This document shows, one piece after another, positions 24,753 to 26,525 of a DNA stretch of 64,000 bases (within the stretch, counting starts at the first letter, position 1; every line of letters begins with the position of its first letter). The DNA is from Nakamurella alba (GTDB lineage: Bacteria > Actinomycetota > Actinomycetes > Mycobacteriales > Nakamurellaceae), in assembly GCF_009707545.1 (NCBI RefSeq), contig NZ_WLYK01000001.1:744001-808000 (forward strand), written 5' to 3'. The position numbers and the translations under genes are program-made. Below the pieces are notes generated by a model, which did no database searches, had not been told where the DNA came from, and was given only the letters and a program-made list of their open reading frames with translations.

Positions 24753-25232
24753 TCAGTGCCCGGCGATCGGCGCGCTGGTCCCGCCGCAGGCCCGGAGCAG
24801 GTCGGCGGCGGACAGCTCGACCTGCAGCCCGCGTCGGCCGGCGCTGACGAAGATCGTCTCGAAGCCGGCCGCGGAGGAGTCCAGCACGGTGGGCAGCCGC
24901 TTGCGCTGGCCCAGTGGTGAGATCCCGCCGGCGACGTAGCCGGAGGAGCGTTCGGCCTCGGCGACCGGGGCCATCGCCACCTTCTTGCCGCCGACCGCGG
25001 CGGCCAGTGCCTTGAGATCGAGGTGTGCGGCGACCGGCACCACGCCGACGACCAGCCGGCCGTCGACCGAGGCCACCAGGGTCTTGAACACCCGTTCCGG
25101 GTCCTGGCCGAGGGCCCGGACCGCCTCGTCGCCGAACGCCGTGGTGCGCGGGTCGTGCTCGTAGGTGCGGACGGTGTGCGGGATCTTCCCCTGCAGCAGC
25201 ACCGCGATCGCAGGGGTGGGGGCGCCGGCCAT
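24753..25232 (-). CDS. ybaK: YbaK/EbsC-type Cys-tRNA(Pro) deacylase
   Basis: The protein is 159 residues, usual for the free-standing YbaK editing domain, which clears Cys mis-charged on tRNA(Pro). Family features are the YEHDPRTTAFGDEAVRALG segment, VFKTLVASVDGRLVVGVVPV, the Lys-rich AAVGGKKVAMAP loop, and GYVAGGISPLGQRKRLPTVLD. A homologue occupies the same place next to sigH in M. tuberculosis. It converges on the SRAP gene with 16 nt between stops. Confidence 0.88.
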   Translation of the reverse strand: MAGAPTPAIAVLLQGKIPHTVRTYEHDPRTTAFGDEAVRALGQDPERVFKTLVASVDGRLVVGVVPVAAHLDLKALAAAVGGKKVAMAPVAEAERSSGYVAGGISPLGQRKRLPTVLDSSAAGFETIFVSAGRRGLQVELSAADLLRACGGTSAPIAGH

Positions 25233-25272
25233 GCCGGAACCCTAGGGCATGCCGCGGAGGGGGCGGCGATCC

Positions 25273-25298
25273 GGAATAGCCGCCGGTCCGGCCGTGTT
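25273..25298 (+). promoter_or_regulatory. SigR/SigH-type autoregulatory promoter
   Basis: GGAAT at 25273-25277 and GTT at 25296-25298 are separated by exactly 18 nt, the SigR/SigH consensus. The predicted start near 25305 leaves a leader of roughly 19 nt to ATG 25324, with GGAAGGA at 25308-25314 as ribosome binding site. Confidence 0.72.
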
Positions 25299-25323
25299 CC
25301 CATGGTCGGAAGGACTGGTGTCG

Positions 25324-25485
25324 ATGACTTCATCCGCAGTGCTGGAGCGGGCAGTGGCAGATCCGGTGGTGCTCGACCGGATCCCGCAACCCGTCCGATC
25401 GCTCGCCGACCGGGAGGGTCCGGCGGCACGGGTAGATTCGCCTTCACGCAAGGACCCGCGCGCCGGGTCCCGGAGGAGGCTGCAG
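25324..25485 (+). other. Predicted N-terminal extension of the sigma factor isoform
   Basis: In-frame ATG 25324 (and GTG 25318) would add 54 (56) residues before the internal start at 25486. The stretch is stop-free, and GGAAGGA precedes the ATG by nine bases. In Streptomyces coelicolor the stress-induced transcript of sigR encodes a 55-residue-extended, unstable isoform; the length and promoter position here are the same. Whether both products are made is inference. Confidence 0.6.
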
Positions 25486-26169
25486 GTGACACCCGAGGTG
25501 GACCCGGATCCGGGCACGACGGATCCGGAGGCGACGGTGCAGCAGGAGCCCGCCGCTCCCGAGATCAGCGAGCAGGAGCGGTCCCGGCTCTTCACCGAGC
25601 AGGCCATGCCGTTGCTGGACCAGCTGTACGCCGCCGCCATGCGGATGACCCGCAACCCGGCCGACGCCGAGGACCTGGTGCAGGAGACCTACCTGAAGGC
25701 GTACAGCGCCTTCGCCGGGTTCACCCAGGGCACCAACCTGCGGGCCTGGCTCTACCGCATCCTGACCAACACCTACATCAACGGCTACCGCAAGAAGCAG
25801 CGGCAGCCGCAGGTGGCGCCGACCGACGAGATCACCGACTGGCAGCTGGCCTCGGTGGAGTCGCACACCTCGACCGGCCTGCGGTCGGCCGAGATGGACG
25901 CACTGGACCGGCTGCCGGACAGCGACATCAAGGAGGCGCTGCAGGAACTCCCCGAGGACTTCCGGCTGGCCGTCTACCTGGCCGATGTCGAGGGCTTCTC
26001 CTACAAGGAGATCGCCGGGATCATGGGTACGCCGTTGGGCACCGTGATGTCCCGCCTGCACCGTGGCCGCCGGCAGCTCCGCGAGCTGCTGACCGACTAC
26101 GCGACCGAACGCGGATTCCTGCGCGGTTCGTCGATGGCGACGGCCGGCGCCGAGGAAGGGAACGAGTGA
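25486..26169 (+). CDS. sigH: ECF sigma factor SigR/SigH (thiol-oxidative stress)
   Basis: The internal GTG 25486 has GGAGG ten bases upstream and gives 227 residues, the normal SigR/SigH length. Region 2 is [23 protein letters not shown] with [17 protein letters not shown]; region 4 is [47 protein letters not shown]. The stop overlaps the ATG of its redox-sensing anti-sigma by one base, so the two are coupled. Known regulons include thioredoxin, mycothiol and protease genes; the upstream GGAAT-N18-GTT shows likely autoregulation. From memory the gene order matches Rv3223c. Confidence 0.93.
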
Positions 26170-26525
26170 TGGAGACCGGTGGCGGTGTGACCGGGCCGTG
26201 CGGTGCGCCCGGCGAGAAGGGCGACTGCTCGGACGTGCTCAACGACGTCTGGATGTTCCTGGACGACGAGATGGACGTGGCGCGGAGGTCGGCCGTGCAG
26301 CACCACCTCGACGACTGCTCGCCCTGCCTCGAGGAGGCCGGGCTGACGCAGAAGCTGAAGTCGTTGCTGCACAACAAGTGCGGCGGCGACCGGGCACCGG
26401 AGGAGCTGCGGTCGCGGCTGGTCACCAAGCTCAGTGCGCTGCAGGTGACCGCCGACGCGCGCGGCGCCGACATCACCTGGACCGAGGTCACCCAGGTGAC
26501 CACGGTGCGCACCGACCAGGCCTGA
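26169..26525 (+). CDS. rshA: Zinc-binding redox anti-sigma factor RsrA/RshA
   Basis: The protein is 118 residues. The ZAS zinc motif is complete: Cys20, then H46-x3-C50-x2-C53, with the same 26-residue spacing from the first Cys to His as RsrA. Oxidation of these cysteines to a disulfide releases zinc and the sigma factor. Cys11 and Cys71 are additional. The N-terminal 18 residues are Gly-rich and not conserved. The ATG overlaps the sigma stop, and a strong hairpin terminator follows 13 nt after the stop. Confidence 0.92.
   Translation: METGGGVTGPCGAPGEKGDCSDVLNDVWMFLDDEMDVARRSAVQHHLDDCSPCLEEAGLTQKLKSLLHNKCGGDRAPEELRSRLVTKLSALQVTADARGADITWTEVTQVTTVRTDQA

Follow-up and report, generated by a model that had tools for sequence, protein, structure and literature searches.

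The two-isoform organization of sigR reportedly goes back to an original paper by Kim et al. (2009), which is said to cover Mycobacterium smegmatis as well. In Streptomyces, two isoforms and two promoters, p1 and p2, are experimental facts (PMC5472188, PMC4921905), and excerpts of these papers place the constitutive p1 downstream of the long-form start (PMC5472188) and give the unstable long form 55 or 58 extra residues (PMC4921905, PMC5472188). The SigR consensus of S. coelicolor is described as GGAAT-N18-19-GTT (PMC9205884), and work in Corynebacterium glutamicum, in the portion drawn on here, indicates that GGAAT, not GGAAC, points to SigR/SigH over SigE (PMC10012870). Mycobacteria and corynebacteria carry a similar sigma/anti-sigma pair, sigH-rshA, with the same promoter consensus (excerpts of PMC4803200 and PMC10012870). 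M. tuberculosis sigH is described as having a p1 plus a p2 recognized by SigH (PMC4921905), and the three sigH starts mapped in C. glutamicum are, in the sections of PMC3489674 that treat them, all of the SigA type, so the loop is not universal.

Here we analyze a sigR locus in a window of 64,000 nucleotides, the whole stretch of DNA examined, from the 6.05-Mb genome of the soil actinobacterium Nakamurella alba (29 contigs). A first-pass annotation had likened its layout to that of Streptomyces, and the match held up: sigR-rsrA of S. coelicolor and S. venezuelae (SigR, SigR') has the same p2 consensus, an in-frame ATG after p2, an extension of about 55 residues (54 codons here versus the 55 or 58 residues in the Streptomyces excerpts), an internal p1, which is predicted here, and a short-form start after a strong Shine-Dalgarno sequence. 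The elements are present in a conserved order, and the reading frame is under selection across the class. The two-promoter, two-isoform layout known from Streptomyces is therefore very probably present at this locus, and we put at roughly 0.7 the probability that it works as a redox switch of SigR and RsrA in which two nested promoters serve two isoforms, its burst ending itself through an unstable long form.

Under this model, p1 mRNA in unstressed cells would be translated from GTG 25486 into short SigR, which RsrA would hold. Thiol stress would oxidize RsrA, and the freed SigR would fire p2, whose mRNA would start near 25308. Translation from ATG 25324 would yield a form carrying a 54-residue N-terminal tail that is probably disordered. 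This long form would raise the amount of sigma factor quickly, and its tail would, by analogy with Streptomyces, make it a short-lived Clp substrate, so that the burst would end itself. The two-isoform design is established in Streptomyces, and the window locus is an ordinary instance of it. The wider comparison suggests that the layout is widespread among actinobacteria, which would bring the SigR/SigR' loop, as known from Streptomyces, closer to what is probably a general rule of the class, and this broadening is accompanied by statistical support for translation of the extension. We found no description of class-wide frame selection in sigR in the limited library of literature searched.

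The sigR-rsrA locus and its stress promoter

We compared the locus with a non-random sample of 99 loci, made up of 30 from 61 genomes of the genus and order, 29 out of the top 30 matches by score among 295 genomes of the class, and 40 hand-picked for family spread before their upstream DNA was inspected. Duplicates (L067 and L138, both identical to L027, and L109, identical to L013) were removed before counting. Another 78 named loci were those that matched the window protein best and so lean to close orders. Frame tests leave out the 6 of 99 loci that have no strict p2, and p1 tests leave out a further 5 of 93 with no TANNNT in register 1; all p-values ignore kinship among the sequences.

The sigR/sigH core, encoding the 227-residue short isoform, occupies 25486-26169 on the forward strand and ends with TGA at 26167-26169. 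Its product scores 335.4 bits against TIGR02947 (curated cut-off 251.55), which places it in the SigR/SigH family. The partner zinc anti-sigma gene rsrA (26169-26525, forward strand) follows directly 3' of sigR, scoring 95.3 bits against TIGR03988 (cut-off 62.5) and carrying the HxxxCxxC motif as HLDDCSPC. Its start overlaps the sigR stop by one base (TGATG); the two genes also overlap in S. coelicolor and S. venezuelae, where the junction is ATGA. Divergent from sigR lies a YbaK gene for a Cys-tRNA(Pro) deacylase (24753-25232, reverse strand, TIGR00011), a thiol-linked proofreading enzyme that shares the short intergenic region and starts 40 nt from p2. A second forward frame, 25023-26525, stays open for 500 codons over the whole of sigR and finishes in the frame of rsrA; it is most likely a by-product of GC-rich DNA.

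Direct reading of the sequence bears out the SigR-type promoter named at first pass: p2, at 25273-25298 on the forward strand, consists of GGAAT (25273-25277), an 18-nt spacer and GTT (25296-25298). The motif by itself was dropped as promoter evidence, as the genome of 6.05 Mb contains 85 copies of GGAAT-N17-19-GTT and the base composition of the window predicts about 82. A reversed-pattern control gave 8 matches, differs in base composition and carries no weight. Because the motif stands at background genome-wide, support for p2 comes from its conservation in place. The chance of finding it on this strand in the 91 nt that separate ATG 25324 from the divergent gene is about 0.0006, and GGAA[TC]-N17-19-GTT lies within 700 nt 5' of sigR on the coding strand in 93 of the 99 loci from across the class, compared with 2 of 99 on the opposite strand and 1.9 of 99 expected from shuffles. 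In the first locus set, GGAA[TC] and GTT stand 18 or 19 nt apart in 30 of 30, and p2 is present in all 17 Nakamurella loci and in 78/78 of the further named loci, mostly from close orders. Four of the six misses have GGAAA instead, namely L096 and three loci of one genus (g7, family f7) that we take to be probably mycobacterial; at L060 and L099 the relaxed patterns tried returned nothing p2-like. By homology, p2 is a probable SigR-dependent promoter.

The internal promoter and the short-form start

The first-pass annotation made no mention of p1, which is required for the short form. We identified TAGATT (25433-25438, forward strand; in frame as G-TA GAT T) as the probable -10 hexamer of a constitutive p1 that, by homology, would be active. 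A sigma-70 and terminator scan of 25230-25500 returned nothing, and this p1 has a -10 but no recognizable -35. Across the loci compared, 88 of 93 have TANNNT in the codon register xTA NNN Txx (89 matches), compared with 7 and 2 matches in the other registers, and control counts of register-matched hexamers are 3 in 13846 codons of the core and 4 in 9300 upstream of p2. The codon that opens the hexamer is GTA in 54 cases, CTA in 24 and ATA in 10, and in the core GTA makes up 1.6% of valine codons. Since xTA codons are rare and the encoded residues vary, TANNNT is conserved as DNA and not as peptide.

We dropped the p1 codon register as proof of translation, because leaderless p1 mRNAs can fix the register too. 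In 26 of 88 loci, an in-frame ATG or GTG stands exactly 8 nt downstream of the hexamer, while starts at the other in-frame offsets of 2, 5, 11, 14 and 17 nt number 3, 6, 2, 5 and 1, and where a start sits at 8 nt the p1 mRNA may be leaderless. Such starts would favor an explanation in which the geometry of leaderless p1 promoters, and not translation of the extension, sets the register. We regard this as unlikely, as hexamers with no start nearby keep the register (61 versus 6 versus 2) and, in the 60 loci that lack a leaderless-like p1 start, stops in the gap from p1 to the first in-frame start number 0 in 894 codons in the sigR frame and 11 in 837 in each of the others. Promoter geometry would in any case be a partial explanation at best, leaving untouched the avoidance of stops upstream of p1 described below.

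The short-form start consists of a Shine-Dalgarno sequence, GGAGGAGG at 25472-25479, and GTG 25486, 6 nt downstream of it (25472-25488 together, forward strand). Its position 54 codons inside ATG 25324 is as the first-pass annotation had it. The start codon is GTG here and GTC in Streptomyces. In Nakamurella endophytica (L013), the arrangement of this start and its distance from p1 are as in the window. By homology, we expect both starts to be used.

The locus could alternatively make one protein only, the long form from ATG 25324, with GTG 25486 an internal codon and TAGATT no promoter. The frame is open throughout, the scan of 25230-25500 gave no sigma-70 consensus promoter, and downstream starts with a good Shine-Dalgarno sequence (match of at least 5) are found in the sigR frame in only 19 of 88 loci, the other frames having 5 and 0. 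This reading is quite improbable in view of the strong GGAGGAGG before GTG 25486, the retention of TANNNT as DNA on rare xTA codons, the excess of starts 8 nt after the hexamer over other in-frame offsets, and the production of both forms in Streptomyces, as described in part of PMC5472188.

The long-form start and the N-terminal extension

The fifth base of the -35 element GGAAT/C is numbered -31 in the relevant passage of PMC10012870. With an 18-nt spacer, this puts GTT at -12 to -10 and the predicted +1 at about 25308, leaving a leader of about 16 nt (25308-25323, forward strand). The first-pass estimate of about 19 nt should, by the numbering in that passage, be nearer 16. The leader contains the Shine-Dalgarno sequence GGAAGGA (25308-25314), 9 nt before the in-frame ATG 25324, and direct reading confirms this pairing as first annotated. 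Predicted leaders are about 40-50 nt in five Streptomyces-like loci, taken as such because L063, of the same family (f30), has AGGAGGTG followed by GTC. An ATG 16 nt from the predicted +1 is also found in L010 and L012, whose sigR cores come closest to that of the window among the relatives (88% and 87%).

The sigR frame is open upstream as far as a stop at 25243-25245 and holds two other candidate starts. ATG 25249 is in frame but lies upstream of p2, and GTG 25318 has AAGGA only 3 nt before it. Our first start-picking rule chose GTG 25318 and a second, ATG-favoring rule chose ATG 25324; we consider GTG 25318 the less likely of the two.

From ATG 25324 the long isoform gains an N-terminal extension of 54 codons (25324-25485, forward strand), and the corresponding frame is open across 88 loci. 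Between p2 and the core, stops take up 15 of 8086 codons in the sigR frame compared with 130 of 8058 and 234 of 8022 in the other two. The cleanest test of translation is given by the 20 codons just upstream of p1, because the short form cannot be coding there. Across the 88 loci these codons contain no stop in the sigR frame (0/1685) versus 22/1677 and 46/1677 in the others. The Nakamurella loci alone give 0/320 versus 2 and 5 (7/640), which is not significant (Fisher 0.10). In each of the 88 loci the sigR frame offers a start codon between the two promoters, and in 65 that start has a Shine-Dalgarno match of at least 4. Of the 171 loci with p2, 5 lack a usable start at a sufficient distance upstream to encode an extension. 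Together these counts make it very likely that the extension is translated across the class.

It is least likely of the alternatives that p2 is real and self-activated yet translated only from GTG 25486, with no long isoform and an open frame that is a by-product of GC-rich DNA: the extension has weak codon bias and a poorly conserved sequence, which fits this reading, and the Nakamurella loci alone are compatible with it, but it is opposed by the class-wide avoidance of stops upstream of p1, by the 35 in-frame starts at the p2 +1, every one of them open to the core, versus 4 out of frame among 93 loci, and by the retention of the ATG at 16 nt in L010 and L012.

Returning to the two-isoform reading, the first-pass annotation had named conservation of the extension in relatives as a check on its proposal. 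The frame and the layout are kept and the first residues resemble those of some relatives, while the rest of the amino-acid sequence is poorly conserved and diverges fast. The long form begins MTSSAVLER here, MTNSAVLDR in L012 and VTNTAVLDR in L018, and by eye the extension is unlike those of Streptomyces. Among the window locus, L010 and L012, differences per codon at positions 1, 2 and 3 are 0.45, 0.46 and 0.60 in the extension and 0.10, 0.04 and 0.27 in the core. GC content by codon position is 0.78/0.59/0.74 in the extension, a weak bias, and 0.67/0.46/0.94 in the core; extensions of Streptomyces-like loci give similar values (0.72/0.72/0.75). As a coding test, codon-position GC and substitution counts were rejected as too weak to decide and were counted against translation.

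An AlphaFold model of the long form, of modest quality (mean pLDDT 61.7, pTM 0.32), has pLDDT below 50 for residues 1-77, and the 54-residue tail is probably disordered. RNA folding of the 5' end gave no signal (z 0.86). The motif [LMVIT][DE]RP falls within the first 15 long-form residues in 7 of 34 families (shuffled mean 0.4), and the looser [LMVIT][DE]R in 9 of 34 (shuffled mean 3.9); because starts were picked by rule and the families are related, we treat the motif as suggestive only. In several other families (L093, L095, L078, L079, L061 and L087), residues 13-18 of the extension contain WPEW or WAEW, a tryptophan motif that could act in recognition of the long isoform. A lone W in comparable surroundings (EWP, DWP or LDW/LEW) is seen in f15, f23 and f30, and the W residues of the Nakamurella tails in L019 and L023 lie outside the motif. 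At three loci, L051 and L055 (f26) and L054 (f33), p2 lies only 123-157 nt from the core, with no room for the usual extension; these may have lost the long isoform and kept self-activation.

Leaderless candidates and the Clp genes

In-frame starts peak 9 nt after the GTT of p2, which is the predicted +1. The 35 in-frame and 4 out-of-frame starts counted above in 93 loci lie at offsets 8-10 after GTT, and the same offsets in the 78 named loci hold 33 in-frame and 1 out-of-frame; the in-frame starts are all open through to the sigR core. An in-frame start at the predicted p2 +1 is found in 23 of 38 families. Restricting the count to starts that lie 37 or more codons above the core, which excludes L054 with its p2 only 123 nt before the core, leaves 34 of 90. 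Both states are found within Nakamurella: 3 of its 17 loci appear to be leaderless, and the window belongs to the other state with its 16-nt leader. The pattern suggests that in many lineages the long isoform is probably made from a leaderless mRNA. In M. tuberculosis, 3 of 25 newly mapped SigH-dependent starts, at other or unnamed targets in the part of PMC4803200 drawn on, lie within 5 bp of the initiation codon, consistent with leaderless mRNAs. No description of a leaderless sigR mRNA turned up in the literature searched, a limited library that lacks most subscription journals.

We hold at even odds the broader idea that actinobacterial sigR is a nested leaderless/leadered switch, with the p2 +1 on the long-form start in many lineages and, in some, the p1 +1 on the short-form start. 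If so, promoter choice alone would pick the isoform, independently of a Shine-Dalgarno sequence, and synthesis of the regulator could go on while stress impairs initiation on leadered mRNAs. Sequence would also predict which lineages make the long form from a leaderless message; Lentzea and Amycolatopsis are genera with a predicted leaderless form, and Streptomyces is leadered.

The autoregulatory loop put forward at first pass is upheld by comparison in its self-activated promoter (probable), its longer in-frame isoform and its downstream start. Clp proteases are regulon members in Streptomyces (in excerpts of PMC5472188), whereas here no SigR-type promoter lies in the 1.5 kb upstream of clpP1P2, relaxed patterns included. 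Among the matches listed, no GGAAT stands just upstream, on the right strand, of clpX or of the presumed clpC, an 848-codon gene with two Clp_N domains on contig 3; M. tuberculosis clpC1 is described as carrying a SigH consensus site (in the portion of PMC4803200 used here). The Clp-induction half of the negative loop is so far without promoter support here, and constitutive Clp could degrade the long form.

Elsewhere in the genome, trxB has GGAAT-N18-GTT upstream, and an ATPase gene with two Clp_N domains on contig 8, presumed to be clpB, has GGAAT-N17-GTT. GGAAC matches number at least 372 genome-wide, too many to interpret singly; those listed come from contig C1 only, and the presumed clpC on contig 3 is outside them. 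One of them, GGAAC-N18-GTT at C1:1527098-1527123, lies 25 nt upstream of the start codon, GTG, of a paralogous ECF sigma gene on contig 1 whose product is 38% identical to the window SigR, which suggests that this SigE-like factor is controlled by SigR or by itself.
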